Shown here: positions 861 through 55,607 of the stretch, piece by piece
Layout: every line of letters starts with the position of its first letter
Position numbering within the stretch: position 1 is the stretch's first letter
NCBI GenBank assembly: GCA_021464245.1
Contig: JADCRB010000001.1
Location: 7,250,152 to 7,314,151, forward strand
Source: Carallia brachiata
Taxonomy: Eukaryota > Streptophyta > Magnoliopsida > Malpighiales > Rhizophoraceae
Length of the DNA stretch: 64,000 nucleotides
Direction of reading: 5' to 3'
Made by a program: the position numbers and the translations under genes
The notes under the pieces: model-generated
Told to the model about the DNA's origin: nothing
Database searches by the model: none
The model's input: the letters and a program-made list of their open reading frames with translations, nothing else

Positions 861-1028
861 TTATAATGGTTTTTTTGCAATTAAAAATAACTTTTATCTA
901 CGGCCACTTAACGGAATATGTTTCTTATAACCGCAAATAAAATTTGGTGTATTTTTATAATTTTTCAAATTAGAGGATGTCAGTTATAAATACACCGTAT
1001 TTTTAAGATGATAAATATAAACTACAGA

Positions 1029-1420
1029 CACTACACCATAAAAGAGTTTTTATAGCAGTTACAGACAAAAAGTCTAAAATCACTGCCTATTGTCTAATAC
1101 AGTAGTTTTTTAGCCGCTGCATTTGATAAGCGCTGCAATAACCTTTATACAGCAGTTTTTAAAATTATTGTAGCACAAATTAAAACTGTTGTGTAAAGGT
1201 TTTATGCAGCAGTTATCGTTATCAATGGCAGCAGTTTTATGAAAAATTTAAGCAGTCGTTTTCAAATGATAAGGCATCAATTTTTAGGAGACTAAAGCAT
1301 CAATTTTCGATAAAATATGCGTAGTACGAATTGGAAAAAGTAGCGGCTTTCAATAGAAAAAGCAATAGTCTAAATTGGAAAAGGCAGCGGTTTTCACTAA
1401 TTTGAGACGCTGTTTTACAA
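1029..1420 (+). mobile_element. CACTA (En/Spm-like) transposon terminus
   Basis: The stretch begins with CACTACACCATAAAAGAG, the characteristic start of plant CACTA transposons. Several hundred bases of degenerate subterminal repeats follow in both orientations, of the type GCAGCAGTTTT and AAAACTGCTG (examples near 1082, 1141, 1185, 1206, 1228, 1384). CACTA transposases of the En/Spm family bind such subterminal repeats. No transposase coding is visible, and no matching end (..GGTGTAGTG) was seen in the window. I read this as an isolated end or a truncated, non-autonomous copy. Confidence 0.6.
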
Positions 1421-2356
1421 TTGACAATTTGCATATAAATTTTAAAATATTATTTATTAACACAACTTTTCAGAATCCAAACATAAATAAAGTCTCAAAC
1501 ATCGAAACTATAAGTCATTAATTAACAATCCATAATTAATATATCTATAATAATTTGTAAAGTTTTTATAAGGTTTACATAGGAGGATTATAATCCTTCA
1601 AGTAAAAAGATGTTTAAACACTTTAAATTCAACTAGTGCAACCTCCACACATGATGCTCTGCAGCTGATAAATCAGAAAGGTACTCGCAAATTAATCATA
1701 TATACACGTACATCAATTTACGAATAATAGAAACGAAAATTCTTTCTAGATAAAAAGTAACCTTAAGTTGACAAAGGTGAAGGATTCAACGCTATATTTG
1801 AGCTGTAAAATTATTCCATGAAGGACCAAATATTCGAATGGTGAAATTGGTGGACAGGTGTTACTATAGATATATACCAAAATTCTGATTAAGTTACTTT
1901 ACGACCAACATCGTGAAAAATTAATAAAGAAATATAATTACAATTCAAGATTTTAAATTTTGCTAATTCTGCATTTAGTAGATGCCTCAATTTTCAAATG
2001 GAATGTTCTAAATATAGAACACTTAAGTCTTTGATGACTAACCCATATAGATAATTTTTACTTTCGCATGTTCCTCATGAAATGCTCCACAAGGTGACAA
2101 CCTATTGCAAATATAATTATTCTTCAACTTCAAAAGATACAACACTAATGTGATGGGATAGAGACAATATCAATCGCTTAGTCAACATAAACCATGCCTG
2201 TAACCTCTATACAAATCTGACTATTTAAACAAGATCAACATATCAATCTCTGATGGCTTACCTATCAAATATTTTTCATTGGCCATAAACTCTCTAAGCG
2301 TCGACATGTATGCATATCTTTGTACGCATGTAATGCACAATGTCCTAGGTTCATGT
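1421..2356. other. AT-rich spacer, no gene seen
   Basis: No convincing reading frame, RNA gene or repeat was recognised here. It lies left of the duplicated block and has no obvious counterpart in copy B. Confidence 0.5.
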
Positions 2357-2489
2357 GGCTCTGATCTCTTGTTTGCTTTTCTTATTCATGTAACAATATT
2401 CATCATATCAACAGGCTGCAACAAATTAGAAAAAGGGCCAGAGGAAATTAATGTTGCCCTTTTCATTTTCGGGACTCGGTGCTTGATGT
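2357..2489 (+). pseudogene. GDSL lipase exon-1 remnant, plus strand (inverted)
   Basis: The plus-strand frame reads a signal-peptide-like segment (SDLLFAFLIHVTIFIIST) followed by GPEEINVALFIFG. This matches exon 1 of the GDSL gene at 39254-39530 almost residue for residue, but that gene is on the minus strand. At the catalytic GDS block one G is missing, so the frame is lost exactly at the nucleophile region. A second partial copy of the signal-peptide DNA follows directly (2487-2522). There is no start context and no downstream exon. It is a dead, inverted exon fragment. Confidence 0.8.
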
Positions 2490-2550
2490 GATCTCTTGTT
2501 TGCTTTTCTTATTCATGTAACAATATGTGGGCAACGACAATTACATAAAA

Positions 2551-2640
2551 GCAAACAAGAGATCAGAGCCAATTAGCCTAGCTGCTATGGTTGACCACTT
2601 AATTAGTCCCCCAAATCAGAGCAACTTATTAGCGAAGACG
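2551..2640 (-). pseudogene. GDSL lipase 5' end and flank remnant, minus strand
   Basis: This segment matches the 5' end of the GDSL gene C first exon plus its upstream flank (compare 39490-39575) in normal minus-strand orientation. It faces the plus-strand remnant at 2357-2489, so the two form an inverted repeat of about 20 bp (2357-2377 against 2553-2573). It is also the left edge of the duplicated block shared with copy B (44960-45021 and 46613 onward). Confidence 0.75.
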
Positions 2641-3023
2641 GAAGAGCCACAAGTCTATATCATCTTATCTTATCTTCTAGTATAGCTGGATGCAAACCAC
2701 ATGCATACTTTTCACCTGCTTACTCTATGCTTTTTTTTTTTTTTTTTGAGAGAGAGCAGAGTGGTACTCAACAATTTTGCTAAAGAGCATTAAACTTCCC
2801 TATTAGTGATATAGGTGTTAATTTATGCTATTTTTGTTGGAGATATTTATGCTATTTTTTTCCGAGAATTTTTTGGGCGTGGGGTGGGTGAGGGTTGCTC
2901 ATATCAAATCATGAGGTCCGTTTATGGTAAATGAAAATCCAACGGCATTCGTTTTTTTTTTTTTATATCTGTCTCCATGCAAGCATACAAAAATATAAAT
3001 AATTTAAGATATACTAAGTATAA

Positions 3024-3060
<37 letters not shown>

Positions 3061-3495
3061 CGTATTTTGAGCTAAAATATTCTAATTGATTAAAGTTATA
3101 ACCATTAAATATTGCACTAGAAAAATTGTTTAAAAAAAGTCTATTGTCTTTCGAGGTTACAATCGTGTTTCACGCCGTTTTATTGTTAACTCAATAGAAA
3201 TAGTATGGAGTGGCTTCCAAGTCATTCATGTTAATAAAATTTTTTAAAATTTGAGACCTTAGGACAAGTAAAGGAAAATGATCCGTTTATTAGAAAAAGG
3301 AAAAGCGAATTTGTTGACACATTTATCTTAAAAGGAAAAAAAAAATGAACTTAAGTTGGGCTTATTTGTGCGGTGTTCTTTTCTGGGCTAGCTTGGTTAT
3401 CGATAATCGAGTGACAGTCTGTAACAAAGATTAAAGGCTTGAAAACTGTAATGCAAGTGAGACACTGTGGGGGAGTCCACCCACAGCCCACAAGA
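2641..3495. other. AT-rich spacer, no gene seen
   Basis: Non-coding by inspection. It contains a T run near 2732, a T run near 2951 and a (TA)n tract at about 3029-3052. It matches 46640-48013 in copy B apart from the MITE there. The short TA tract is much longer in copy A than in copy B. Confidence 0.5.
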
Positions 3496-6950: not shown

Positions 6951-6955
6951 GGGTT
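6951..6955. repeat. 5-bp target site duplication, gypsy element, left
   Basis: GGGTT precedes the TG of the 5' LTR. GAGTT (15846-15850) follows the CA of the 3' LTR, with one mismatch. The uninterrupted site in copy B (around 51562) reads GGGTTATCGG, which confirms the insertion boundaries. Confidence 0.85.
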
Positions 6956-7060
6956 TGTAAACATCTTTTTCAGAAGAAAAAAAAATGAATGAGTTAATGG
7001 TCAGCTGCCAATTTTGAATTGGCACGCCGACCCTAAAGAAAATTAAAAAAAAAAAAGATT

Positions 7061-7091
7061 CCTTTCCCATGTGATGTTCACATGGGAAAGG
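7061..7091. promoter_or_regulatory. perfect 14-bp palindrome just upstream of the LTR TATA box
   Basis: CCTTTCCCATGTGA at 7061-7074 and its exact reverse complement at 7078-7091 are separated by three bases (TGT). The inner part contains CATGTG/CACATG (E-box-like). It lies 5 bp upstream of TATAAATA (7097). The 3' LTR copy has one mismatch in the left arm. The position suggests a transcription-factor site or an extruded hairpin in the U3 core promoter. Confidence 0.8.
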
Positions 7092-7096
7092 AACCC

Positions 7097-7104
7097 TATA
7101 AATA
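7097..7104 (+). promoter_or_regulatory. LTR TATA box
   Basis: TATAAATA in a CCC...GGCCCC context is conserved in both LTRs (also 15179-15186). It is the likely core promoter of the element's genomic RNA. Confidence 0.75.
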
Positions 7105-7770
7105 GGCCCCAACCCCTCAGTGCAAAACATATTCAGCAAATCTGTAAACAGAAAAATTCAGAGAATTTGAGAGAAAAAGAAAATTTTGAAAATCTCTCAA
7201 GAAAATTTCTCCTTTTCTTACGTGTTTTTATTCTGCAGTATACTCTCCTAACTCCTTTTTGAGAGATATTTCAGGGGTAAGGCCCAAAAAATTTGCTGTT
7301 TCCATTTCCAAAGTTATTTTTAGATTTATATTCTCCGATCGCCATAAATCTGAATTTATGAGAATATAGATCTGAAAATATCAAATTACTACAAATCCAG
7401 CTGGGATTAAGCCTCAAACGGCCCTCAGCAAAATCCAGGCAGCTCATCCGAGAACAAGTCCCTTCGACCCTCGGTGAAATTAAGTCAGATCGGCTTAGAT
7501 CAGATCTCTGCTGTTCATAACCGTAGTCAAAACGTCTAAATCAGATCCGGTTTCAGTCTACCCAGTTCAAGAAAAAGCTGGTGAAATTATTTTTGTCAAG
7601 ATCAAGCTCGTGTAGCCCTTGACCGAGTCAAAAACGGAACACTAATCGGAGGATCTACGGAGATCGACCCCACGTAAATTTTCTTTTATTTTACAATTTT
7701 TATTTGTAATTTATTTTTGTATTTTCGAGTCTAACTGTTATAGGCTCGAAATTTACGCTTTACAAATTTT

Positions 7771-7788
7771 TGGCACGCTCGGTGGGAC
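7771..7788 (+). other. primer binding site
   Basis: TGGCACGCTCGGTGGGAC starts 6 bp after the 5' LTR. Its complement ends in CCA, as expected for the 3' end of a tRNA primer. I did not identify the tRNA. Ogre/Tat elements often use tRNA-Arg. Confidence 0.75.
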
Positions 7789-8287
7789 AACTTCACCTCC
7801 CATCTCTTGTTCCTTAAAAAAAAAAAAAAGAGGTAAAAGGGGAGCCGAGAGAAAAAAAAAAGGACAAAAAAAGTCAAAAAAAAAGTAAAAAGTAAAAAGT
7901 AAAAAAAAAAAAAATTTTTACAGGTGTTCAGCACATCAAATGACACAAAAAAAAGTACAGCTGCCGGTACCAACAAAAAAGTAACGGCTCCACTGCCTGC
8001 ATCAACTACCCTACCTGGGTACGCAGGTCCAGAAACCCGGGGACGGACACAATTTCTTGCCATCCAAACCCAAAAAAATATCGAAATGGAGAGTCACAGC
8101 TCGCACAACAGGATCTCTCTCCTGACTCTCTTGCCGCATGGAAGAGTCGATCACCCACCCCGATCGAAGTCGGGGGCAACACGACGAAGCCCGCTCAACA
8201 GAATCCAACTCATACTGTAGAGATCCACACAGAGGAATCAGAAGAGTTCTCTCCCCCAGTCTTTCCCAGAGCCTCATCTGTTGCCCC
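7789..8287. other. gypsy 5' leader with A-rich tract
   Basis: Untranslated leader between the primer binding site and gag. It includes A-rich runs at 7818-7918 and a GC-richer stretch (7960-8280) without a convincing frame. Confidence 0.6.
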
Positions 8288-9951
8288 ATGATGACCAACA
8301 CAACCAGCACAGAAGAAAGAATTTCAGAATTAGAGAATAAAATTTTGCAGCTGATCAGAGTTGTGGAGGAAAAAGATCAACAGATCGCCGCTCTCAAAGG
8401 AAAGGCCCCGATCCAAGTTGATCCTGAAATTCGCGAAGAGCAACCATATCTCCAGAAGCCACACCAGCCGACGTCTTCACTGCAGAAAAGCGACCAGGTA
8501 GTTCTACACAGCTGCCACCCTCAAATTATGTATCTTTGCTATCTGTTCAACAATTGCAGGAAATGATAGCCAATATGATCCGACTGCAATAAGCTGCATC
8601 CTTCCAAGGATCACAGATGTACGTCAAACCGTACACCAGACGGATCGAAAGTCTCAACATGCCTCTGGGCTACCAGCCGCCCAAATTTCAACAATTCGAC
8701 GGACGAGGCAATCCCAAGCAGCACATCGCTCACTTCGTTGAAACCTGCAACAACGCAGGGACTTACGAGATCTCTTGGTGAAGCAGTTTGTTCGTTCACT
8801 CAGGGAGACCGCTTTCACCTGGTTCATAAATCTTGAACCAGAATCGATCGACAGTTGGGAACAGCTACAACGAGAGTTTCTCAACAGATTTTTCAGCACC
8901 GAAGGACGGTAAGTATGATGGAGCTTACCAGCACCAAACAAAGAAAAGGAGAGCCCGTTGTCGAATACATCAACAGATGGCGTGTCCTCAGCTTGGACTG
9001 CAAAGATCGTTTGACGGAGACTTCTGTCGTGGAGATGTGCATCCAAGGAATGCATTGGGAGCTGTTATATATCTTGTAGGGTGTCAAACCCCGATCCTTC
9101 GAAGAACTGGCGACCTGCGCACATGATATGGAGATAAGCATCCAGACTTCCGGAGGCACAGTTCCCATCCAGTTGGACCAGCAAGGGGGCAGAAGGGAGA
9201 TTAAGAAACCCAACAGCTCCTGAAAAGGAAAAGAAGTGATGACTGTTGAAACCGCACCAGTAAAAGTAGGCGCCAAAGCTAAGGTAAATCTCCGACCCAA
9301 ATAACTCAGCCAAAGCAACAGGAAAGGCGGAAGGTGACATTGCGAGAGCTGGAGCAGAAGCAGTATCCATTCCCCGACTCAGACGTCCCCGACATTCTTG
9401 AACAACTCTTGGAGGCGAAGCTGATCGAATTCCTAGAGTGCAAGCGGCCGAATCAAAAGGATCGAGTCAGCGATCCGAGATTCTGCAAATATCACCGGAT
9501 AGTAAGTCATCCAACCGAGAAATGTTTCGTCCTAAAGGAGCTAATCATGAAGCTCAAAAGCCAGAATAAAATCATTCTGGACCAGGAAGGCATAACCTCG
9601 GCAAACCAGACCACCATCACTTCAAAACCATCAGAAGAGGTGACACACCGTAAGGAGGAGCCGCTCGACAACAAAAAGTCGACAACAGAGAAGGTATATG
9701 AAGCTCTCCAAACCCTTATCGCTAACCCTCAGCTGTTTATAGCTCTGCAATCAACAGAAGTGTGGCAAAATCAAGTCAGCAATACTCTCCAGACCTCAGC
9801 TGAATCACAGCCATCAAATGATTCTAACTCAGCGGAGCATCAGACGACCCAAAATCACGTCGGATGTTACTCTGCTATCTCATTTTCAGATGAGGATCTC
9901 CTGCTGGGTCCAAACCACACAATCGGACGCTGTATGTATCAGGCTATGTGA
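8288..9951 (+). pseudogene. gypsy gag (broken)
   Basis: The capsid region is split over several frames. It starts at the paired ATGs at 8288/8291, followed by a coiled coil (SELENKILQLIRVVEEKDQQ). A frame change follows near 8500, then a TAA at 8590-8592. The core is typical of Tat-type gag (MPLGYQPPKFQQFDGRGNP from about 8660; LRETAFTWFINLEP; VEYINRWRVLSLDCKD), with a frame break near 8775 and a TAG after LYIL near 9078. The last part (9334-9951) is open and contains the usual CKYHRIVSHPTEKCF knuckle-like motif. Gag packages the element RNA. This copy cannot make a full-length protein. Confidence 0.85.
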
Positions 9952-10008
9952 GAGAACAGAAGGTCCGATGTATTCTGCCCGGAACTCATTCCACAAATCG
10001 AGGAGGAG
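9952..10008 (+). other. junction of internal deletion (protease and RT start missing)
   Basis: The frame runs through a motif that precedes the aspartic protease in this lineage (LYVSGYVREQKV, about 9928-9963). Within ~25 bases it changes to sequence just upstream of the RT palm. No DSG/DGGS-type protease motif exists in any frame here. Full-length relatives have roughly a kilobase or more between these points. I infer a deletion near 9965-9990. Confidence 0.65.
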
Positions 10009-10776
10009 GTGAACAAGCTGATCAATGCTGGCTTCATCCGAGAGGTCACCTACCCAACGTGGATTGCCAACATTGTCCCGGTAAGAAAAAAGAATGGACA
10101 ATTGAGAGTATGTGTTAATTTTCGAGATCTTAACAGGGCCTGTCCGAAAGATGACTTTTCATTGCTCATAACGGAGATCACAGTCGATGCAACAAGGAGT
10201 CACGAAGCATTGTCCTTCATGGATGGTTCTTCAGGCTATAACCAAATCAGAATGGCACCAGAGGACGAGGAGTTGACAGCATTCCGCACCCCAAAAGGTA
10301 TATACTGCTACAAAGTTATGCCGTTTGGATTGAAAAATGCTGGCGCCACTTATCAACGTGCTATGCAAAAAATTTTTGATGACATGCTGCACAAGTTTGT
10401 AGAATGTTATGTTGATGACTTAGTTGTAAAGACTAAGAAGCGCAAAGACCACCTCGAGGATCTCAAGACAGTGTTCGAAAGACTTCGGAGGCATCAGCTC
10501 AAAATGAACCCTCTCAAGTGCGCATTCGGTGTCACATCAGGAAAGTTTCTTGGGTTCGTGGTGCGCCATCGTGGAATCGAAGTTGATCAGTCAAAGGTTG
10601 AGGCAATTCAAAAGATGCCTGAACCTAAAAACCTGCACGAGCTGCGAAGTCTACAAGGAAAGCTGGCTACATTCGCCGTTTATCTCCAATTTAGCTGGGA
10701 GATGTCAACCTTTCCATCGGTTGATGAAGAAGGATGTCAACTTCGAGTGGGACGAAGCTTGCAGCAAAGCCTTTGA
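10009..10776 (+). CDS. gypsy reverse transcriptase (5'-truncated, frameshifted at 3')
   Basis: Open frame of 255 codons, plausibly continuing from upstream sequence rather than truly starting at 10009. Recognisable RT blocks in order: FIREVTYPTWIANIVPVRKK (8-28), RVCVNFRDLN (33-42), FMDGSSGYNQI (70-80), FRTPKGIYCYKVMPFGLKNA (92-111) and the catalytic YVDD at residues 134-137 (10408-10419). These are followed by the thumb-like FLGFVV and ELRSLQGKLA. RT copies element RNA to cDNA in the virus-like particle. The end is shifted near 10690; the sequence continues in another frame to the RNase H region at 10837. The RT N-terminus is missing through the deletion upstream. Confidence 0.9.
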   Translation: MNKLINAGFIREVTYPTWIANIVPVRKKNGQLRVCVNFRDLNRACPKDDFSLLITEITVDATRSHEALSFMDGSSGYNQIRMAPEDEELTAFRTPKGIYCYKVMPFGLKNAGATYQRAMQKIFDDMLHKFVECYVDDLVVKTKKRKDHLEDLKTVFERLRRHQLKMNPLKCAFGVTSGKFLGFVVRHRGIEVDQSKVEAIQKMPEPKNLHELRSLQGKLATFAVYLQFSWEMSTFPSVDEEGCQLRVGRSLQQSL

Positions 10777-10836
10777 GAGCATAAAGAAGTACCTTTCCAA
10801 TCCACGGTCCTAGGTGCTCCAATTCAAGGAAAGTCG

Positions 10837-12501
10837 TTGATTCTCTACATTGCAGCGCAGGAAAGATCTTTGGGAGCCTTGCTTGCACGAGCAGGGAAAG
10901 GAAGGTACTACTTGAGCAGAACACTAAACGGTCCGGAGCTGAGTTATTCGCCCATTGAAAAGACATGTCTAGCACTGTTCTTTGCCATTGACAAGCTGAG
11001 GCACTACATGCAAGCTCACACGGTACGTCTCATTGCCAGAGCTGATCCTGTCAAATATATCTTATCTAGACCAATCTTGTCAGGACGACTTGCCAAGTGG
11101 GCAGTAATCCTACAAAGCTACGACATTGTCTACGTGCCTCAAAAAGCAGTCAAAGGACAAGCTCTAGCAGACTTCCTTGCAGATCACCCTGTTTCGTCAA
11201 ATTGGGAGTTCACAGATGATCTTCTAGATGAAGAGGTCTTTTACATTGAGACACTACCACTATGGACGATGTTCTTTGATGGTGCAACGAGGCGTGATGG
11301 TGCTGGTCCCGGCATAGTATTTGTCACTCCTCAACGACAAATACTACCATATGCTATCATTCTCGGTGAGTTATGTTCAAATAATGTTGCTGAATACCAG
11401 GCTTTGATCATTGGTCTTCAAATGGCTGTCGATATGAAGATTCCAACTATAGAAGTCCATGGAGATTCCCAGCTCGTCATCAACCAACTTACAGGATTGT
11501 ATGATGTGAAGAAAGAGGACCTTGCGCCTTACCATCAACGTGCTCGACAGCTAATGGATGAATTTGAAAGCATCACCTTGGAGCATGTGCCTCGACGAGA
11601 AAACACTCAGGCAGACGCGTTGGCTAACCTGGCCACTTCTCTTGCAAAGTCAGAAATCCAGGCTACAGTTGTTGCCGTATGTCAGAAATGGATAGTGCCA
11701 CAGAAGGATGATGAAGAAACTACAGCAGCCAACGCTGTATCTGTACGTCTCGCGGAGGACGAGGATTGGCGCCAACCAATCATTGACTACCTACAGCACG
11801 GGAAGCTGCCTGAAGATCGTCGTCATAAGACAGAAATTCAACGACGAGCTCCCCGCTTCATATATCTCAAGGATGCTCTGTATCGAAGATCTTTTGATGG
11901 AGTTTTGCTTCGTTGCCTAGACAATGAAGAGGCAAAACAAGCTCTCGCTGAAGCACATTCAGGAGTTTGTGGCGGACATCAATCGGGGCCTAAGTTGCAC
12001 TTTCAACTCAGAAGGATGGGATACTACTGGCCAACCATGGTACGTGATTCAATTGAGTTTGCTAAAACCTGTCAAGCTTGTCAATTTCATGCGAATTACA
12101 TACATCAACCACCGGAGCCACTGCATCCAACTGTCTCATCCTGGCCCTTTGAAGCTTGGGGTCTCGACTTAGTGGGGCCCTTGCCAAAGTCATCCCTAGG
12201 TCACCTGTACATCCTCGCAGCAACCGACTACTTCTCAAAATGGGCTGAAGCCATTCCACTTAGAGAGGTAAAGAAGGAGCATGTTGCCAATTTCATCCGG
12301 ACTCAGCTGATCTATCGCTATGGAGTCCCTCGATTCATCATCACTGATAATGGTAAGCAGTTCTACAACAGCTTGATTGACAAGCTGCGAGAAGTTCAAG
12401 TTCAAGCAGTACAAGTCATCCATGTACAATGCCCCAGCAAATGGCTTGGCCGAAGCATTCAACAAGACCTTATGCAACCTATTGCGGAAGGTAGTCTCTA
12501 A
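10837..12501 (+). CDS. gypsy dual RNase H and integrase (broken in integrase core)
   Basis: 554 codons open. Residues 1-118 are the C-terminal part of the RT-linked RNase H (LSYSPIEKTCLALFFAI, ending QALADFLADHP). Residues ~143-270 are a second RNase H with the acidic set D148 (FFDGA), E186 (NVAEYQAL), D210 (HGDSQ) and D260 (QADALA). Integrase follows with the zinc-binding H374, H381, C412, C415 and core Asp residues at D444 (GLDLVGP) and D504 (TDNGKQF). After about residue 515 the frame shifts; the third catalytic residue (Glu in LAEAFNKT, about 12445) is in the next frame. Integrase inserts cDNA into the genome. This copy is inactive. The archaeal-type second RNase H assigns it to the Tat/Ogre branch. 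Confidence 0.9.
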   Translation: MILYIAAQERSLGALLARAGKGRYYLSRTLNGPELSYSPIEKTCLALFFAIDKLRHYMQAHTVRLIARADPVKYILSRPILSGRLAKWAVILQSYDIVYVPQKAVKGQALADFLADHPVSSNWEFTDDLLDEEVFYIETLPLWTMFFDGATRRDGAGPGIVFVTPQRQILPYAIILGELCSNNVAEYQALIIGLQMAVDMKIPTIEVHGDSQLVINQLTGLYDVKKEDLAPYHQRARQLMDEFESITLEHVPRRENTQADALANLATSLAKSEIQATVVAVCQKWIVPQKDDEETTAANAVSVRLAEDEDWRQPIIDYLQHGKLPEDRRHKTEIQRRAPRFIYLKDALYRRSFDGVLLRCLDNEEAKQALAEAHSGVCGGHQSGPKLHFQLRRMGYYWPTMVRDSIEFAKTCQACQFHANYIHQPPEPLHPTVSSWPFEAWGLDLVGPLPKSSLGHLYILAATDYFSKWAEAIPLREVKKEHVANFIRTQLIYRYGVPRFIITDNGKQFYNSLIDKLREVQVQAVQVIHVQCPSKWLGRSIQQDLMQPIAEGSL

Positions 12502-13002
12502 ATCCAAAAGAGATTGGCATGACAGAATTCCGAGGCATTATGGGCGTATCGTACAACTTACCGGACTCCAACACAGGCGACGCCATACTCACTTGTCTAC
12601 GGTGTCGAAGCAATACTGCCGTTGGAAACACAGATTCCATCCTGCGCATGGCTGTTCTGGAAGGACTCACACAGGAGGAGAATGCTCGCCTACGTCTGGA
12701 GTTAGAAGCCCTCGATGAAAGGAGGCTCGAAGCACAACAGCAACTTGAGTGCTACCAAGCCGGCTCACCAACACATTCAACCGCAGGTCCGCCCTCGATC
12801 TTTTCAAGTTGGAGACCTTGTTCTTGCAGTGCGACGGCCCATCAACATGAAGCATCGGCCTGGTGACAAGCTTACTTCCAAATGGGACGGGCCATACTTA
12901 GTGCAGGAGGCCTACACTCACAACGCTTACATGCTGTCAGACCAAGAAGGCGTCCGAATCGGCCCGATCAATGGTAAATTTCTGAAACAGTATTATGTGT
13001 AA
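12502..13002 (+). pseudogene. gypsy integrase C-terminal region (shifted frames)
   Basis: The rest of integrase is spread over frames. The last stretch (12800-13002) ends VGDLVLAV, KLTSKWDGPYLV, LSDQEGVRIGPINGKFLKQYYV and a stop at 13000-13002, a typical end of Tat-type integrase without a chromodomain. Frameshifts lie near 12400, 12540 and 12790. Confidence 0.8.
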
Positions 13003-13330
13003 ATATGTTTTAAAAAAAAATCAAAAAAAAAAAGAAAAAAAATCAAAAAAATAGAAAAAAAAAATCAAAAAGTCAAAAAAAAAAAAATTTACGAAGTCCC
13101 GATCTGAAAGTCCAAGCGAAAATCCAAACCCGAAAATCCAAGCCCAAACACTTGAGCCCAAATCAGAAAACTCAAGCCCGAACCCAAAAATCAAAACCCA
13201 AACACTCAACCCAAATCCAAAAGTCCAAGTCTAGAAGCCCAAACATTCGACCCAAATCCAATCCAAAACCCAAAACCCAAAAATTCCAAGTTCCAGACAC
13301 AATCCAAACCCAAGTTCAAAATCCAATCCA
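13003..13330. repeat. A-rich run and CCCAAAxxTC minisatellite-like tract
   Basis: 13010-13090 is almost pure A with a few T/C. 13095-13325 is an irregular tandem array built from units like 'cccaaatccaaa' and 'aaaatccaagcccaaaca', period about 12-18 bp. It separates pol from the WOX cassette. Confidence 0.75.
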
Positions 13331-13372
13331 ACTCCTGGCCCGCATGAGTATAAACTGTGAACGGCCCAAAAA

Positions 13373-13380
13373 TATAAAAG
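13373..13380 (+). promoter_or_regulatory. internal TATA box upstream of the WOX ORF
   Basis: TATAAAAG lies 96 bp before the ATG at 13469, in a context free of upstream ATGs in the likely leader (13405-13468). It suggests the WOX sequence has, or had, its own promoter independent of the LTR. Confidence 0.5.
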
Positions 13381-13468
13381 CGACGGAGGGTTTGAGTCTG
13401 AAACTCAGCATCAGTCTCAACCGATCTTCACCACATACCAAGACCTTTGCTCCTCTGCCACAAGAAAG

Positions 13469-14091
13469 ATGGAACCAGTTGCAGAACCTCAAGACAAGGG
13501 AGAAGAAAGATCACCCCGCACAAGGTGGCAACCGACCATGGCACAACTGCAAATTTTGGAGGAAGTCTTCCACAACAATGGAGGTATTATCCTAGTGCAT
13601 CTCAAATTTACCAACTTGTCTCACGATTGCGCCCGCTCGGGGCAATCGAAGGAAAAAATGTGTTTTATTGGTTCCAGAATCGGAGAAGCAGGAAGAAACC
13701 AGCACTGAGAACTGCTTCTTCCAAAGAACAGTCTGTCGTTCCGATAGTAAATCCCACTGGTACAGCTTCGCCCTCAAATGAAGCAGGTCCGAGTTCTTCC
13801 ACTGCAATGGTCTCTCCACGGTATGTTCATCAAAGCCGTAGCCCATGGGAGCATGCATGCTGGTCCTGGTGGTCTTACGGAGTCAGCCAAGGGTTCATCC
13901 CTCCTAGATACTTAAGTCTAGGAGGAATTTTTCTAGCAGAAAGGAGTTATTCCGGCGAAACTTTGCCTCTCTTTCCAGAATATTCCGGCAGCATCAACCA
14001 GCTGGAAAGCGACGTCGACGTCGACGTCAACATCATCGGCCCACCAGACGAGGTCGAGCTTGACTTGGAGTTGCATCTCGGGCCCCGCTAG
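13469..14091 (+). pseudogene. WUSCHEL-related homeobox (WOX) ORF inside gypsy element, one frameshift
   Basis: WOX proteins are plant homeodomain transcription factors that control stem-cell niches. From ATG 13469 the frame reads an acidic N-terminus, then the homeodomain start (RTRWQPTMAQLQILEEVFHN, codons ~18-37). One nucleotide is missing near 13583-13586. The adjacent frame continues through SASQIYQLVSRLRPLGAIEG and the recognition helix NVFYWFQNRRSRKK. The latter part encodes a WUS-box (TLPLFP, 13960-13977), a DVDVDV tract, and a C-terminal EAR-like repressor motif (LDLELHL, 14059-14079) before TAG at 14089. IEGKNVFYWFQN plus the WUS-box point to the WUS clade; the tail after the helix is unusual. 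Predicted length is about 207 residues allowing for the lost base. It has no introns. It sits between pol and the 3' LTR, in sense orientation. Confidence 0.85.
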
Positions 14092-14114
14092 GACGGCCGA
14101 CAAGATAAGGTGCA

Positions 14115-14188
14115 ACGACTTTGGCAGCACACGGTAACGACTTCTGCAGCACACGGCAACGACTTCTGCAACACACGGTAACGACTTT
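14115..14188. repeat. 22-bp tandem repeat (3 units plus partial)
   Basis: Units at 14115-14136, 14137-14158 and 14159-14180 share ACGACTTyTGCArCACACGG, followed by a partial unit. They lie just after the WOX stop codon in the element's 3' region. Confidence 0.85.
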
Positions 14189-14310
14189 CGTGTCACGCGT
14201 CAGCCGCTGCCTCTTTTGTCTCTTATGCAGGAAAGGGACGTGACGTCCCTACTCGATTCTGCGTACCTTCTTTTTGACTTTTCAAAAAAAAAAAAATCTT
14301 TATCGTATGT

Positions 14311-14318
14311 ATATATAT
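14311..14318 (+). promoter_or_regulatory. TATA-like box upstream of accessory ORF 2
   Basis: ATATATAT at 14311-14318 is followed by a pyrimidine-rich leader (CTCAGCTCTTCTTTCTC) and an ATG at 14373 in AAAATGGCT context. It looks like a second compact plant gene start within the element. Confidence 0.35.
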
Positions 14319-14372
14319 CTTGCATTCCCGAGTTGTAATACTCACCCCTCAGCTCTTCTTTCTCAAAAGAAA

Positions 14373-14795
14373 ATGGCTAGTCTCTGCACTTGTCTCAGGA
14401 AGTTCTTCGATCAAGAAGTTGGAGGCGCACGAGCTAAGAAAAGAAGGAGTAGTCTTCCTCGAGGGATCCCTAAAAGCCCTCGAAACTCAGTCTCCAACGC
14501 CATCGGTGTCATGGAGTTCCAACTACTCTCCTTAGTTCACATCTACCACAGAGGGATGAGAAGTTGCAATCATCCTAATCTTCCTTTGGATGCGGCGACG
14601 TATAGGGAAGTTCCAACTACTCTCCTTACGTCGAAGCAGACTTGGGAATCATCACTACAGTCAGTCTCTCTGTGTGCCGGTCTTGAAGTTCCAAGGTGCT
14701 GGGCCTTCCTCTTGGGGAGGTTCAAGTTCTTTGCCTACCGGATCATCCTCACCAGAGCTTTGGAACTTCAAAGAACCTTTGTCAGCCTTTGCTAG
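14373..14795 (+). CDS. uncharacterised accessory ORF 2 of gypsy element
   Basis: 140 codons from the ATG at 14373. The N-terminus (MASLCTCLRKFFDQ) is followed by a basic segment (RAKKRRSSLPRG). I recognise no domain. Other frames in the same stretch also look protein-like (14590-14865 contains a Ser/Gly/Pro-rich run with SSLPTGSSSPELWNFKEPLS), so a frameshift is likely. A ~20-bp direct repeat (GTTCCAACTACTCTCCTTA) occurs at about 14516 and 14609. Because it lies between the WOX ORF and the 3' LTR, it may be part of the same captured cassette or an element-specific accessory gene. Confidence 0.35.
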   Translation: MASLCTCLRKFFDQEVGGARAKKRRSSLPRGIPKSPRNSVSNAIGVMEFQLLSLVHIYHRGMRSCNHPNLPLDAATYREVPTTLLTSKQTWESSLQSVSLCAGLEVPRCWAFLLGRFKFFAYRIILTRALELQRTFVSLC

Positions 14796-15022
14796 TTATG
14801 GAAGCTCGAATGCACCTGTAGCTAGAATGTCAATTTTTATATTGGCTTGGCTGCTAACTTTCTGAAGATCGTATCGGATTCCTATTGCGATCCAACAACA
14901 GCAGGCATGGTCAAAGATAGAAGACTCCAAGATTCAATGTTCATCAGGACGTTTCCAAGTTTCAAACTGGACTTCAAGACTCGGTTCGAATCATTTCTGT
15001 AAAATTCTTCTTTACCGACCCT

Positions 15023-15038
15023 TGAAGTGGGGGCATTT
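15023..15038 (+). other. polypurine tract
   Basis: TTGAAGTGGGGGCATT immediately precedes the 3' LTR TG. It is the usual plus-strand primer of plant gypsy elements. Confidence 0.75.
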
Positions 15039-15845
15039 GTAAACATCATTTTCAGAAGAAAAAAAAATGAATGAGTCAATGGTCGGCTGCCAATTTTGAA
15101 TTGGCACGCCGACCCTAAAGAAAATTAAAGAAAAAAAAGATTCATTTCCCATGTGATGTTCACATGGGAAAGGAACCCTATAAATAGGCCCCTGCCCCTC
15201 AGTTCAAAACATATTCAGCAAATCTGTAAACAGAAAAATTCAAAGAATTTGAGAGAAAAAGAAAATTTTGAAAATCTCTTAAGAAAATTTCTCCTTTTCT
15301 TACGTGCTTTTATTCTGCAGTATACTCTCCTAACTCCTTTTTGACAGATATTTCAGGGGTAAGGCCCAAAAAATTTGCTGTTTCCATTTCCAAAGTTATT
15401 TTTAGATTTATATTCTCCGATCGCCCTAAATCTGAATTTATGAGAATATAGATTTGAAAATATCAAATTACTACAAATCCAGCTGGGATTAAACCTCAAA
15501 CGGTCCTCAGCAAAATCCAGGCAGCTCATCTGAGAACAAGTCCCTTCGACCCTCGGTGAAATTAAGTCAGATCGGCTCAGATCAGATCTCTGCGGTTCAT
15601 AACCGTAGTCAAAACGTCTAAATCAGATCCGGTTTCAGTCTACCCAGTTCAAGAAAAAGCTGTGGAAATTATTTCTGTCAAGATCAAGCTCGTGTAGCCC
15701 TTGACCGAGTCAAAAACGGAACACTAATCGGAGGATCTACGGAATCGACCCCACGTAAATTTTCTTTTATTTTACAATTTTTATTTGTAATTTATTTTTG
15801 TATTTTTGAATCTAACTGTTATAAGCTCGAAATTTACGCTTTACA
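15039..15845 (+). repeat. 3' LTR of gypsy element
   Basis: Matches 6956-7764 at about 97%. It ends CTTTACA, followed by GAGTT (target duplication), and copy-B-homologous sequence resumes at 15849. Confidence 0.95.
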
Positions 15846-15849
15846 GAGT

Positions 15850-16140
15850 TATCGGAAGGTTATTTTAGAAACTGATTTTATGGAGGCCCTTCATTTGATT
15901 TCTAGTTAGCTTAACGAGGCTCGCCCACTCGCTTACTGATATCCAAAGTATTAGTGCTCGAGAGTGGCAAATTTCATTTCAACATATATTGAGAGGGAAA
16001 AAAACTCTTGTGTTGATTATCTTGCGAAGGTGGGCGTATACTGTGGTACTGGCAAAACTCTTCTTGAGCATCCTTGAGAAGCTTGGCTTTATTGTTGGCT
16101 GAGGGATCCACCGGGTGCTGTCTTCTTCAAATGTTAGTTT
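15850..16140 (+). pseudogene. LINE RNase H domain remnant, copy A
   Basis: Broken plus-strand frames read VILETDFMEALHLIS, then a NFISTYIEREKNSCVDYLAKVG-like segment (cut here by differences) and LLEHP. These correspond to the C-terminal RNase H domain of plant non-LTR retrotransposons (the conserved Asp near 'ETD' and the 'R..N..AD.LA' helix). Several stops and shifts show it is dead. The gypsy element inserted beside it. Copy B equivalent: 51565-51860. Confidence 0.6.
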
Positions 16141-45021: not shown

Positions 45022-46609
45022 GAGCTCGTTTGGAGACGTTGTCAGTTTTTTGTTTTTGTTTTTCATTTTCTATTTTTTTGTTTTTACTGTTTGCTGAATT
45101 TTTGTATTTATTGCTGTCAATTTTTGTTCTTGTTTATAAGAATAAAAAAATAGATAGAAAAAGATAGTGAGAGAAATGATAAAAAGAGTATAAATATAGA
45201 GACAAAAAATGGGAGAGAGAGACAGAGAGAGAAAGAGGGTAGAGAGAGAATGAGTAGAGAGAATGACAAAAAGAGAAAGGGTAAAGAAAGAATGAGTAAA
45301 CAGAATAGTAGAGAAAGAAAAATAGAGAGAGAGGGTAGAGAGAGAATGAGTAGAGAAAATGACAGAGAGAGAGGGTAGAGAAAGTACGAGTAAAGAGAAT
45401 ATAGAGAGATAAAACATAAAAGCATTTTTCAAAGAAAAAAAAACTGAATGAAAAACAATAAAAGATGCTTTCCTATTTTATTTTTCAGTTTCTTTTCTAT
45501 ACTTTTTCTCACAACCTTTTCTCTCTCTATCTACCCTCTTCACTATATCTCTCTCTACTCATCCTCTGTCTATCCCTTTCTATTTCTTCTCTCCTACTCT
45601 TTCTCTCTCTATGCTTTCTCTCTCTACCCTCTCTGTCTCATTTTCTCTCTCTACTTATTTTCCCTCTACCCACTCTCTCTTTCCTTTTTCTCCCTCAACC
45701 ATTCTGTCTACTCATTCTCTCTCTACCCTCTTTCTCTCTTCTTTTTCCATCTCTACCATTCTCTCTCTACCCACACTCTTTTTTTTCTTGCTCTACCATT
45801 CTTTCCACTCATTCTCTCTCTACCCTCTCTCTCTCTCTCTCATTTTGTCTCGCTCTACCATTCTCTTTTCTTATTCTCTCTCTACCCTCTCTCTCTCTCC
45901 TTTTTCTCTCTCTGCCATTATCTCTATTCTCTCACTCTCTCCTTTTTATCACTCTACTCATTATCTCTCTACTCTCTCTTTTTCTTTTTTCTCTCTCTAT
46001 CATTCACTCTCTACCCACACTCTCTCTCCTTTTTTTCTCGCTCTACCATTCTTTCTACTCATTCTCCCTCTAGCCACACTCTCCCTTCTTTTTTTCGCTT
46101 TACCAGTTTCTCTCCTCATTCTCTCTCTACCCTCTCTCGCTCATTTTTCTCTCTCTACCATTTTCTTTACTCATTCTTTATCTACCCTCTTCTTTTCTCT
46201 CTCTTCATTCTCTCTACTCATGTTCTCTCTACCCTATTTCTCTCTCCTTTTTCTCTCTCTACTCTCTCTCTCTGTTATCTTTTTCTCTCTCTATTCATAC
46301 TCTTTTTCCCATATCTCTCACTATCCTATCTCTATCTACCTTTTTATTCTTGTAAAAAAAAATTGACAACAATAAACACAAAAATTCAACAAACAGGAAA
46401 AACAGAAAAACAAAAAATAACAAACAATAACAAAAAATTGACAGCGTCTCCAAAAGTGTCCTTATTTTTCCATTTTTTTTTCTTTGAAAAACACTTTTAA
46501 CTTTTCAACAAAAAAACAGAAAATAAAATTAATTCTAAACATGTTTTCTGTTTTTTTTTTTCATAAATTAAACAGAAAATAAAAAACAAAATCTATTTTA
46601 AACGGGGCC
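45022..46609. mobile_element. 1.6 kb PIF/Harbinger-like foldback element
   Basis: TTA duplicated on both sides (45019-45021, 46610-46612); copy A shows the empty site (ACTTAATTAG). Outer ends GAGCTCGTTT and, reversed, GGCCCCGTTT. Inner inverted repeats are much better: TTTGGAGACGTTGTCA (45029) against the complement at ~46441-46456, and the ~65-bp 'tttactgtttgctgaatttttgtatttattgctgtcaattttt' block (45083 on) against ~46345-46405. Between the arms lie a ~250-bp purine tract (45170-45420) and an ~840-bp complementary pyrimidine tract. No transposase. Confidence 0.7.
45170..46340. repeat. GAGA-rich / CTCT-rich inverted microsatellite-like tracts
   Basis: 45170-45420 is built from GAGAGAGGGTAGAGAGAGAATGAGTA-type units (period about 30-60). 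45500-46340 is the complementary CTCTCTACCCTCTCTCTCTC with CATTCTC spacers, repeated some 20 times. Long Leu/Ser/Phe-rich open frames here are low-complexity artefacts. Confidence 0.85.
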
Positions 46610-46612
46610 TTA

Positions 46613-47368
46613 ATTTACCCCCCAAAATCAGAGCCACTTATTAGTGAAGACTAAAGAGCCACATGTCTACATCATCTTATCTTATCTTCTGCCATAGCTG
46701 GATGCAAACCACATACATACTTTTCACCTGCTTACTTTATGCTTTTTTTTTTTCCCTAAAAATAAGAGAGTAAAGTGATACCCAGATAATTTTACTAAGG
46801 AACATTAAACTTTCCTCTTAATGATATAATGTTAATTTTTGCTATTTTTGTCGGAGATATTTATGCTATTTTTTCAGAGATTTTTTGGGCATGTGGCGGT
46901 TGGGGGTTGCTCATATCAAATCATGGGGTCCATTTATGGTAAATGAAAATCCAACGACAATCGTTTTTTTTTTTTCCCTATCTGTCTCCATGCAAGCGTA
47001 CAGAAATATAAATAATTTAAGATATACTAAGTATAACCATATATATATATTACGTGTTTTGTGCTAAAATATTATAATTGATTAAAGTTATAACCATTAA
47101 ATATTGCATTAGAAAAATTGTTTAAAAAAAGTCTATTTTCTTTTGAGGTTATAATCGTGTTTCACGCCGTAGTATTATTATTAACTCAATAGAAATATTA
47201 TGAAGTGGCTTCCAAGTCATTCATCTTAATAAAAAAAGTTTTAAGTTTGGGAACTTAGGACAATTAAAGGAAAATGATCCGTTTATTAGAAAAAGAAAAA
47301 GCGAATTTGTTGAGACGTTTATCTTAAACGAAAAAAAAAGAGAAAAAAAAAGATGAACTTAAGTTGGG
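46613..47368. other. AT-rich spacer (copy B)
   Basis: Matches 2580-3365 of copy A. No gene seen. Confidence 0.5.
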
Positions 47369-47378
47369 CTTATTTATG

Positions 47379-47880
47379 GGGATATACATATTTTAAGTCC
47401 TAAATTTTTATATTTTTTTTTTACATTTAAGTCCTAACCTTTTTAAATTTCATTTAAGTTCTAAATCTTTTGATTTCTTACCAAATCAATCATTTTGTTT
47501 ACAAAAAGTGGTCAATCTGTTAATAAAAAAGTTTAACATAATTCAAATTATTAAAAAAAAGGTCAAATAAATGAATTAAACATTTTTTTCATCAATAAAA
47601 TATGCATATTAAATATATTTTTAATCAATAAATATACGAATTAAATAGATAGTATGTATATTTTTTGATTAAAAAACCATTCAATTTATATATTTAAGTT
47701 TTTTCCAAATAATTTTTTGTAAGTTTAAAATTATTTTTTAATAGATTAATCACTTTTTGTCAACAGATGGACCGATTTGGTAGAAAATTAAAAAATTTTG
47801 GACTCAAATGAAATGTTAAAAAGGTTTATGACTTAAATAAAAAAATGTAAAGGTTTAGAACTTAAAATATGCATATCCGC
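47379..47880. mobile_element. 502-bp Mutator-type MITE, copy-B-specific
   Basis: Perfect 10-bp target duplication CTTATTTATG at 47369-47378 and 47881-47890; copy A has one CTTATTTGTG at the same place (~3360). Ends GGGATATACATATTTTAAGT and, reversed, GCGGATATGCATATTTTAAGT are inverted repeats, and the arms are self-complementary over ~200 bp. A 9-10-bp duplication with long inverted repeats fits a Mutator-type MITE. Confidence 0.85.
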
Positions 47881-48344
47881 CTTATTTATGCGGGGTTCTT
47901 TTCTAGCCGAGATTGGCTATCGATAATCGAGTGACGGTCTGTAATAAAGATTAAAGGCTTTTAAACTGTAACGTGAGTGAAACACTGAGAGGGAGTCCAG
48001 CCACAACCCACGAGGGAGTAAATTACATTTTATACCATGAAAATTGGGCATAATTACTGTTTACACCATGATGTTTCTAAAATTACATAAAGCATACAAA
48101 GATTAATGTCTATTAGTCAAAGCAGATGAAATTGGGAAAAAGACTAAAATGTCCATTTATATGTATAAGAAAGAAAAAGTTGAATAATAAATCACAACCC
48201 TAGCCGCTTCGTTCTCTCTTCTTCTCTCTGGTTTCTCTGAAACCCTTTGTTGTGTCCCTCTCAAATCTCATATCCTCCTTCAATTTTTGATGATTAAACT
48301 ACTTTTTTCATTGTTTGGAAAAAATTATTTGTCGTTTTATGTTC

Positions 48345-48740
48345 GATTGGTGAGTATTCACTGTGTTTCTCACCTTATGATATGCGTTTTTGTTTTTTGG
48401 TTAATGAGTTAGGGTTTTTGTTTGAAACTTTGAATTTCGTTCGATCTTTTGAAATCAATCATTAGTTCATCATTTTTTGTTCGATTGATGGGCTTTCACT
48501 GTGTTTCTCACCCTTTGATATGCGTTTTTGTTTTTTGGTTAATGAGTTAGGGTTTTTATTTGAAACTTTGATTTTCGTTCGATTTTTTGAAATCAATCAT
48601 TATTTAGGCTTATGATTGGTGGGCTTTCACTGTGTTTCTTACTCTTAGAGATGTGCGTTTTCGTTTTTTGGTTAATGATTTAGGTTTCCTTTTTCAAACT
48701 TTGATTTTTGTTCAATCTTTTGAATTCAATCATTATTTTG
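48345..48740. repeat. ~130-138-bp tandem repeat, 3 units
   Basis: Units start at about 48345, 48483 and 48613. Copy A has two units (3859-4120). The difference reflects unequal exchange after duplication. Confidence 0.8.
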
Positions 48741-49117
48741 TCTATTTATGGTTTGTTCCTCAACTTTTAGGGTTTGGGTATATGATTAAAATATAAAGTA
48801 TGGCTTTATTTTAGGAATCTGTGTAATAGTTTATTGTTAGGGTTTGAAATTGCAGTTAGTGAGGTTAGGGTGTGATTTTGTAGGGACTAATAGGTTGGTT
48901 CCTATCTTTTTTGCCCGAGTTTTGTAGGGTTTTGTAATTTTCGAACCACAACAAATATTTTAATGAAAAAAAAATGGGTGTCAGTAATTAATTAATAGGA
49001 TTTGATTAAATAATTAATTAATCATAACTGTTGTTTGAATTATAATATTAGCTTTCAATTATTTTAATAATGTGTTGGTAAAGTTTGGTCTGTGATGTTT
49101 TTAAACAAGGAGACATA

Positions 49118-49708
49118 ATGCTGACATTGGTTGTGCATTGTGGTAATAAGAAAATGAAGGATGATATAGAGGACAAAGACTTTGTTACCTATATTGATGT
49201 GCTGCGGATGTGCAAGACAATGTATGATGTGGAGAATAAAGGATTCCGGCTATCAACTCACACTAGATTATGGATTGAAGGTGATGTCGATCTACAGAAA
49301 GCTATTGATGAACAGGAGTCAAACACACTACACTTGTACCCGACAGCAGATGCAAAGCCAGCCCCTATACCTTACAAGATTCCATATCTATATTCCATCA
49401 GTGGTGAAACTGGAGGTAACCATTTTGACCATGATGCTACTGTTGATGATGTTAGTGTTAATAATAGTTTGAATGACGTAGTAAATGTGGCTGAAAATTT
49501 TGGGATTGAAGTCAATAATAGCTCCAATTTTTCTGTTGTTGCTGATGCCTCTAAGACCCCTAGAAGAAGTCTTAGAACGAAAATATTATCTGAACAAGCT
49601 ATCTTTAAATGTTTGGCATTTTCTTATTTGCAGCCTCCTATTAATGCAACTAACTCCCAGGCAGTTGAGAGGAGTCATGATGCATCTGGTCCTAATGACG
49701 GTGGCCGA
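49118..49708 (+). CDS. MULE ORF, possible transposase N-terminal gene
   Basis: 197 codons from the ATG at 49118 (MLTLVVHCGN), just after a possible splice acceptor, so this may be a second exon. It has an N-terminal globular part to ~residue 70 (DFVTYIDVLRMCKTMYDVEN; LWIEGDVDLQKAID) that resembles the small N-terminal domain of plant MuDR-like transposases. A Ser/Asp/Asn-rich linker and basic TPRRSLRTKILSEQ follow. It ends at a TAA (49709-49711) where copy A has CAA, so the original exon probably continued into a downstream intron and exon (49930-50045 resembles one). The catalytic DDE part is absent. Function is a guess from context. Confidence 0.45.
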
Positions 49709-50141
49709 TAAGCTGCAAAGGTTTTCTATTTCATAAATATATTTGTTTAATTATTGGTTTATCTCTTTGTTTTATATATTGCCCTAATTATTGTGTCTAT
49801 CTAAACAAAAAAAAGGAAAAAAAAAAAACAAAGTTCAAATCCCAGTACTAGCACACAAAAAAAAAATAACGGTAAATCTTCAATCTTGTACAGCTTTTTT
49901 AGTTTTACATTATATATTTTTGAGTTCTAGCCTTATTCATATAGGGAGCAAAAAGAAGTAAGACAAAGGACCCTCAATCAATACAAGATATACACACTCC
50001 ACATTCCCAGCCTCAATCTTCCAAATATCCACATAATATTTCAGGTACTCATTAATACAACTCTTTCTTCACTTTTGAATATCTTATAATTCATTTGCTA
50101 AATGTGGATGCAAGGACTGAAACATATAAAATCAATGTATC

Positions 50142-50534
50142 TCATAAAAGTAATATTGCATTTATCTTCAATGAGTTTGTTATTGTTTCTAGGTTATATA
50201 ACTTCACAACTACTCTTCTCATTTCAGCCCTTAATGCTTGTATTTCTGTCATTATGTCAACTGGATCATCTCCTCTGTATGTGTTGGTTTCTCTTATGGC
50301 TGGTGTATTTTGAACTTCTTGCATTTCATTCTCTTCACCTACATTGTTCACTAGTGTAAACCACCCAAGGAAACTTAAAAGACAACTCCTTTCTTCACAA
50401 ACATAATAGAATCTATGCTTGTTCTTCTCAAATTTTGAAACATTTACTGTTGCCCGCCTATCGCATGACTTGCACTGAATATTTTTGTATTTGGTTGTTT
50501 GATAGTTAAGGAAGTTGCTGCTTGCTTGGGACAT
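50142..50534 (-). CDS. GRF-type zinc-finger protein with C-terminal coiled coil
   Basis: 130 residues from MSQASSNFLN at 50534; the frame is open upstream to 50582, but MSQ gives a start matched in copy A. A GRF-like finger has C21 and C24 (CKSC), HRFYYVC with C46, and C51 (EERSC). A coiled-coil segment lies at ~96-118 (TEIQALRAEMRRVVVKLYNL), with a hydrophobic end. Small GRF-finger plus coiled-coil proteins are common in plant genomes and often occur in or near transposons. GRF fingers bind single-stranded nucleic acid in some DNA-repair proteins. Here it is convergent with the MULE ORF, within the MULE ends. Copy A is frameshifted. It may be non-functional despite the open frame. Confidence 0.6.
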   Translation of the reverse strand: MSQASSNFLNYQTTKYKNIQCKSCDRRATVNVSKFEKNKHRFYYVCEERSCLLSFLGWFTLVNNVGEENEMQEVQNTPAIRETNTYRGDDPVDIMTEIQALRAEMRRVVVKLYNLETITNSLKINAILLL

Positions 50535-50974
50535 GGCTACCACAAAGAAATTTTTTTGAAGTTTTGAGGATAGAAAGAACAATGTTGGTTACAATCAGAT
50601 GAATTTTTGTAATTTTGAATTTAGGTTGCCTACTTTGGATGGAATTCTTTGTCTTTGACAGCCAACTTTTGCCTACTTTGGATGCCTTTTATAATTTCCT
50701 CCACATTCTATCCGTTCTTGACAATGTTGGAGATGTTTTAGCTCACTACAATGTTCACTTTTGTCTTCTAACATATAAGGGGTATTTTGGGAAGTTTGTA
50801 CCACTTTTAATGGCATTATTGAAATTATCTTGACTTTCTATCAATGGTCACTAATGTCCAGATGTAATTTGACACTGCACTTATAATTTAGTATATTTTA
50901 TGTAATTTTAGAAACGTCACAGTGTAAATGGTAATTAGATCTTATTTACACAGTGTAAAATGTAATTTTTCCCT

Positions 50975-51560: not shown

Positions 51561-51564
51561 GGGT

Positions 51565-51860
51565 TATCGGAAGGGCATTTGGAAACTGATTTTATGGAGA
51601 CCCTTCATTTGATTTCTAGTTAGCTTAATGAGGTTCACCCACTTGCTTACTGATATCCAAAGTATTAGTGCTCGAGAGTGGCAAATTTCGTTTCAACATG
51701 TATTGAGAGAGAACAAAACTCTTGTGCTGATTATCTTGTGAAGGTCGTCATATACTGTGGTACTGGCAAAACTCTTCTTGAGCATCCTTGAGAAGCTTGG
51801 CTTTATTGTTGGCTGGGGGATCTATTGGATGCTGTCTTCTTCAAATGTTAGTTTGTTTCA
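51565..51860 (+). pseudogene. LINE RNase H domain remnant, copy B
   Basis: Counterpart of 15850-16140, without the gypsy insertion. Frames are interrupted in the same places plus private changes. Confidence 0.6.
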
Positions 51861-53645: not shown

Positions 53646-53825
53646 GTCAAAGGAAGGGTGGGGAAGGGGGGGGGGGGCGAACTGCCCCGCTTGCCCCCAT
53701 GTGCCTTGGTCCTTAGGGAAGATCTAAGCTGTGAAACTTACAAGTTAGAAAACAAGGAAACCAAGGAGTGCTGGGTGAATAACAGTATTAGTACTTTGAT
53801 TTTTAAATTAGCATTACAATTGAAG

Positions 53826-55604: not shown

Positions 55605-55607
55605 TTA

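Follow-up and report, generated by a model that had tools for sequence, protein, structure and literature searches.

A WUSCHEL-type homeobox reading frame carried by a Tat-like retrotransposon family of Carallia brachiata

WUSCHEL (WUS) acts in shoot stem cells, the ancestors of the plant germ line, and has been linked to virus exclusion from these cells in the available text of PMC10589665. Genes of its family, WOX, are known to be borne on long terminal repeat (LTR) elements as such: in Vigna marina and V. riukiuensis, WOX genes flanked by LTRs have multiplied, according to the accessible part of a meeting report from 2023 (PMC10714607). The closest parallel for a captured function that we encountered is that of orchid Tat elements bearing an AlkB-type open reading frame (ORF), as presented in the accessible part of PMC9289625. 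Here we analyze a 64,000-nucleotide stretch of Carallia brachiata DNA (contig JADCRB010000001.1, positions 7,250,152 to 7,314,151, hereafter the window), which belongs to a genome of 337.5 Mb in 164 contigs. The window holds a Tat-like Ty3/gypsy LTR retrotransposon of 8.9 kb (6956-15845), and within it, between pol and the 3′ LTR, lies an intronless WOX frame in sense orientation, an arrangement put forward in an earlier reading of the letters alone (the original prediction) and borne out by the protein domains, the LTRs and the target-site duplication (TSD).

A WOX frame shared across a retrotransposon family

The WOX cassette of the window consists of the following features:

13373..13468, forward strand: TATAAAAG box and conserved leader, a putative internal WOX promoter (conservation among copies)
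13469..14091, forward strand: WUSCHEL-type WOX reading frame with one frameshift (sequence, Pfam and structure matches)
13960..13977, forward strand: WUS-box, TLPLFP (sequence)
14059..14079, forward strand: C-terminal EAR-like motif, LDLELHL (sequence)

The coding sequence runs from an ATG at 13469 to a TAG stop ending at 14091 and is split over two frames by a single frameshift near 13588, within the homeodomain; this copy is dead. The short N-terminal half of the homeodomain scores 18.6 bits against the Pfam Homeodomain model, below the cut-off of 22.9, while the second half reaches 26.6 bits and two intact copies elsewhere reach 47 bits (E 2.2e-12). At an E value threshold of 0.1, the second half matched two solved structures and no others, STENOFOLIA (6wig, 1.4e-9) and WUSCHEL (6ry3, 3.7e-9). 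The homeodomain ends in NVFYWFQN, which marks the WOX family, and by the usual definitions of the WUS-box and EAR-like motifs, a T-L-x-L-F-P WUS-box followed by a C-terminal EAR-like motif points to the WUS subclade. The homeodomain, both motifs and the single frameshift had all been named in the original prediction.

Two possibilities had been raised there, a single transduplicated host gene and a family-wide accessory ORF, and the genome supports the second: WOX is a family-wide accessory ORF. A 48-base homeodomain stretch was found with up to three mismatches at 614 genomic places, and because the reversed pattern was found at 0, the homeodomain match is not due to chance. Searches of the genome with the Homeodomain family (best 150 of 1348 candidates scored) and with a WUS protein (best 137 of 1399 candidates scored) gave at least 102 and at least 127 rows, respectively, that we classed as element copies, and together at least 173 distinct copies on 77 contigs. 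We fetched 20 loci (L031-L050) from 150 rows ranked by homeodomain score; WOX and the 3′ region of the element were matched in all 20, and gag-pol in 18. Since two loci hold two WOX each, these loci and the window copy give a comparison set of 23 WOX copies. In L034 and L038, two WOX cassettes lie ∼2 kb apart, which points to tandem duplication or to recombination inside the element. The 3′ LTR starts of the 20 loci differ strongly in the upstream part of the LTR, with several unrelated-looking modules, some of them TGAATTCAATGGCCATTGAATTC-like repeats, and the WOX cassette is alike throughout. A candidate second conserved gene at 14373 was set aside, being highly variable in length among the 23 copies and having no Pfam match. 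In viral contigs, 13 pattern matches to possible relatives were obtained and 0 were confirmed.

Origin of the WOX frame

The source of the WOX frame looks like WUSCHEL. No gap is needed to align the element homeodomain with host WUS, whereas alignment with each of the six other host WOX sampled requires one, and the element homeodomain shares with host WUS an extra loop residue that no other host WOX sampled has. Alignment scores are 178-180 for the two host WUS and at most 163 for the other host WOX. When the whole WOX protein was searched with its two pieces joined by an X (best 120 of 412 matches listed), WUS-type proteins came first, the best with an E value of 1.9e-17 (46% over 45%). Two results weigh against this assignment. 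Raw identity to the host gene L055 (33/61) is slightly higher than to WUS (31/60), though with gaps and at a lower score, and a tree of 24 homeodomains leaves the element unplaced because its branch is long (1.5).

In host WUS, the homeodomain and the WUS-box lie in separate open stretches ∼1 kb apart with stops between them, which we take as probable exons; unlike this, the element frame is continuous through both. From this arrangement we infer that capture probably took place from a spliced WUS transcript. Homeodomain identity to host WOX is only ∼50% (27-33 of 58-62 positions), and the middle and C-terminal part of the protein matched no protein at E ≤1 among 40 candidates (from 5.8 billion), so either the capture is old or the protein is fast-changing. 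On the same grounds the recent capture that the original prediction gave as one of two options is not supported, and a recent transduplication from a host gene was rejected at this level of homeodomain identity. Host WUS itself is nearest to that of Erythroxylum novogranatense (64-66%). The host WOX genes occur in pairs, as after a genome duplication; the pairs are presumably WUS (L051/L052), WOX1-like (L016/L019), WOX2-like (L021/L023) and WOX13-like (L006/L014).

Conservation, constraint and possible role

The TATA box TATAAAAG occupies 13373-13380, 96 bp before the ATG at 13469 as originally predicted. It is retained in 20 of the 22 other copies and replaced by TATAAAAA in the remaining 2, at a near-constant distance to the ATG. 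Nucleotide diversity (pi) is 0.033 over the TATA box and leader (13355-13468), compared with 0.027 in the homeodomain part, 0.052 in the remaining WOX, 0.06-0.12 in the 3′ region and 0.21 in the spacer, in an alignment in which the A-rich spacer aligns poorly and the pol end is unevenly cut. The lowest value in the 2.3 kb examined, 0.019, falls in the 60-base window 13361-13420; other such windows range over 0.04-0.17 after the stop and 0.14-0.26 in the spacer before the TATA box and leader. Conservation of the TATA box and leader at about the level of coding sequence supports a putative separate WOX transcription unit. A promoter taken from host WUS was considered and dropped, as the 112 bases compared showed no marked similarity (local score 14, no shuffle control).

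We estimated selection from the 23 WOX copies as the ratio of nonsynonymous to synonymous rates (dN/dS), which is 0.36 for the whole frame, 0.06 for the homeodomain, 0.67 for the middle and 0.42 for the C-terminal part; for pol it is 0.21 in the reverse transcriptase (RT, 7 copies) and 0.25 in the second RNase H (18 copies). Parsimony assigns 18 synonymous changes and 3 nonsynonymous ones to the homeodomain of this score-ranked sample. To avoid the effect of ranking, the window's 33-base homeodomain stretch was also searched with 10 transitions left free, either synonymous or nonsynonymous, with base make-up equal. Genome-wide, 455 places fit with the synonymous transitions free versus 431 with the nonsynonymous. 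Over the range shared by the first 100 and 97 rows, 91 places fit both patterns, 9 only the synonymous and 6 only the nonsynonymous; if this overlap is typical, we estimate that exact matches number near 404, leaving ∼51 synonymous versus 27 nonsynonymous. The counted places are not independent events, and as we read it CHG sites are more numerous in the synonymous set, so this unranked count leans only weakly towards constraint.

The conservation of the noncoding leader, and likewise of the stretch directly after the stop, is also what would be expected if 13.37-14.4 kb were retained for a function of its RNA or DNA, such as packaging or enhancer activity, and not as a protein gene. We consider this highly improbable, given that homeodomain changes are concentrated at synonymous sites in the ranked sample and that 108 of the 173 copies among the matches listed retain a frame open over 200 or more amino acids with no stop within the match.

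Several results nevertheless weigh against a protein kept for its function. Ranked searches favor intact copies, so that 108 of 173 overstates intactness, and choosing the 20 fetched copies from a list ranked by homeodomain score depresses dN in that domain. Downstream of the homeodomain, constraint is weak: 43 synonymous changes stand against 79 nonsynonymous ones, and it is no stronger on inner branches than on tips (ratios of 0.64 and 0.49). Copies free of frameshifts and early stops make up 8/23 for WOX (624 bases), 9/18 for the second RNase H (451 bases) and 3/7 for RT (616 bases). The original prediction had set the single missing base of WOX against many lesions in gag and integrase, and this lesion-count argument fails because the tested pol domains are about as intact as WOX.

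Two of the fetched loci (L040 and L042) are short elements, ∼5 kb long, whose LTRs of ∼885-950 bases resemble the window LTR only over the last 120-200 bases. No gag-pol match was found in either, and a Pfam scan of nine of their other ORFs gave one weak match below the cut-off (CRAL_TRIO_2, E 0.014). Divergence (K) between the paired LTRs is 0.0053 and 0.0208 in the two elements. In L040, whose LTR pair has the K of 0.0053, WOX has a lesion close to its start and stays open between the homeodomain and the stop codon; the WOX of L042 has a lesion near its end. These observations indicate recent movement of an element that bears WOX but no pol of its own. Tandem repeats partly fill the interval between 5′ LTR and WOX in L040 (reverse strand 2580-3038) and L042 (5989-6638), occupying the place of gag-pol in the long elements.

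The lesion load of WOX, which resembles that of pol, and the weak constraint after the homeodomain could mean that WOX is a passenger, a cassette captured once and copied along as harmless, whose constraint is only apparent and stems from common descent, recent spread and the way in which copies were sampled; the unranked synonymous excess, at just 24 non-independent places of ∼450, fits this as well. Such an explanation deserves serious consideration, though we find it doubtful. It does not readily account for 18 synonymous versus 3 nonsynonymous homeodomain changes in the ranked sample, for the unusual conservation of a noncoding TATA box and leader, for WOX being kept by short elements without gag-pol, or for WFQN, the WUS-box and the EAR-like end persisting despite ∼50% homeodomain identity to WUS.

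We lean, if only slightly, towards a long-ago capture of WUS by a Tat-like element that has kept it as an accessory cistron with a role at host targets. In this sequence of events, a Tat-like LTR retrotransposon would have acquired a spliced WUSCHEL copy between pol and the 3′ LTR a long time before the present copies spread, and WOX would have stayed on as an accessory cistron served by a TATA box and leader of its own while the family grew to more than 600 places. The internal promoter would yield a WOX protein that enters the nucleus and probably acts as a WUS-like repressor. WUS binds DNA and recruits repressors, and since WFQN, the WUS-box and the EAR-like end are kept in the element protein, it should do the same. 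In meristem or founder cells it would occupy the host's WUS/WOX target sites, and the stem-cell state would be held or tuned where new insertions reach the germ line or where silencing is weaker. The role in regeneration or germline access that the original prediction raised is likewise one that we infer.

The targets could also be the element's own sites, with the WOX protein binding the LTR or internal sequences and switching element transcription on or off in dividing cells. We searched the first 230 bases of the LTR starts for TGAATGA- or TCAATGG-type words (L039 and L041 gave no LTR start by this route). Some LTR starts, that of the window copy among them, do contain TGAATGA or repeated TCAATGG words; such words occur in 6/20 and are lacking in 14/20, and the upstream LTR parts differ so strongly among copies that no common site is visible. 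A common WUS-like LTR site was rejected on these counts, and its lack also tells against the reading that we prefer. Because the LTR starts differ widely and the words occur in so few of them, a role at the own LTR is less likely than one at host targets, and we regard self-regulation as quite unlikely.

A bolder version of the host-target reading is that retrotransposons domesticated a host stem-cell master regulator, possibly more than once, that the internally promoted WUS-type protein alters silencing or the identity of the meristem in a way that makes insertions heritable, and that WOX-only elements parasitize the pol of related elements but go on providing this protein. We think this unlikely as a whole. 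A mobile WUS-type gene in hundreds of copies makes transposon manipulation of stem-cell identity for the sake of inheritance testable, and it illustrates that plant WOX gene counts can be inflated by transposons.

Element structure and comparison with known systems

The element around the window WOX copy and its insertion site are made up as follows:

6951..6955, no strand: left TSD, GGGTT (read in the sequence)
6956..7764, forward strand: 5′ LTR, TGTAAAC...TTTACA (96.8% identity with the 3′ LTR; ends inspected)
8837..9079, forward strand: gag fragment (Retrotrans_gag, 23.3 bits, slightly below the cut-off of 24.1)
9952..10776, forward strand: RT (RVT_1, 117.8 bits)
10777..12501, forward strand: first RNase H, second RNase H (RVT_3), integrase H2C2 and core, with the integrase end broken (Pfam)
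13003..13350, forward strand: A-rich, rapidly changing spacer (pi 0.21 over 23 copies, in a part that aligns poorly)
15038..15845, forward strand: 3′ LTR (LTR pair comparison)
15846..15850, no strand: right TSD, GAGTT, one base different from the left (read in the sequence)
51561..51565, no strand: empty insertion site in a paralogous segment of the same window (sequence comparison)

The LTR pair, the TSD and the order RT, RNase H, integrase identify a Ty3/gypsy element. Ogre elements are marked by an extra ORF before gag, an intron between gag-pro and pol and a very large size. In the window element, the domains run RT, RNase H, RVT_3, integrase zinc finger, integrase core, so that the second RNase H (84.2 bits) stands between RNase H and integrase as expected for Tat; dual RNase H is named as a Tat feature in the available text of PMC9289625 and supports a probable placement in this lineage, though not in Ogre specifically, which the original prediction had named alongside Tat. 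About 1.4 kb present in L033, L036, L037 and L045 is absent from the window element at ∼9973-9977, and the other 16 fetched loci gave no match on both sides of this gap. L048 and L050 (at ∼900-3200) match the window pol from 9973 and have no match longer than 100 bases to the window gag region 8101-9972, though the fetched sequence covers that side; their gag may have been exchanged or have diverged.

A second copy of the host segment at ∼46.6-64 kb lacks the element and holds the empty site, so the insertion is genuine and took place after the segment was duplicated. An assembly chimera, which the original prediction had named among the outcomes that would refute it, is ruled out by the LTRs, the TSD, the empty site and the 614 genomic places. 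With substitution rates of 1.3e-8 to 3e-9, the window LTR pair distance (K = 0.0317) corresponds to 1.2 to 5.3 million years. The segmental duplication itself is in direct orientation (window 2598-28386 versus 46609-64000) with blocks ∼85-97% identical; identity rises to 97% over ∼5.4 kb close to its end, against 85-92% for most of the remainder, as if partly homogenized.

The Vigna LTR-WOX resembles the present family in its many WOX copies, more than 1000 in V. riukiuensis, lying mostly between identical LTRs with TSDs, and differs in its host, the host WUS here being nearest to Erythroxylum (PMC10714607, accessible part). The two are compared by description, since that part of the report gives neither a sequence nor a WOX subclass and covers neither gag-pol content nor tests of selection; a common and an independent origin would both fit. 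Besides that report, no WOX-bearing retrotransposon was seen among the open-licence papers listed, which is not proof of absence. The novelty suggested by the original prediction is reduced accordingly: what appears new is the host, the WUS origin, the constraint, the conservation of an internal TATA box with its leader, and the existence of WOX-only derivatives.

Additional ORFs of plant LTR retrotransposons likewise lie between pol and the 3′ LTR, and a word search of the main text of PMC7264820, where these are described, returned no homeobox, homeodomain, WUSCHEL or transcription factor. The orchid elements related to Tat/Ogre that bear an AlkB-type demethylase ORF are, like the family described here, Tat-lineage gypsy elements in which a captured extra ORF has been kept; their ORF is an RNA demethylase active in vitro, whereas here the product is a homeodomain regulator known from sequence (PMC9289625, accessible part). 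Compared with plant WUSCHEL (6ry3), the element protein has the same extra loop residue, TLxLFP box and C-terminal EAR-like motif, and differs in a homeodomain that is only ∼50% identical and in being shorter, intronless, mobile and present in hundreds of copies. A WUS-type accessory protein in plant retrotransposons may finally be likened to the host growth genes that acute retroviruses carry.
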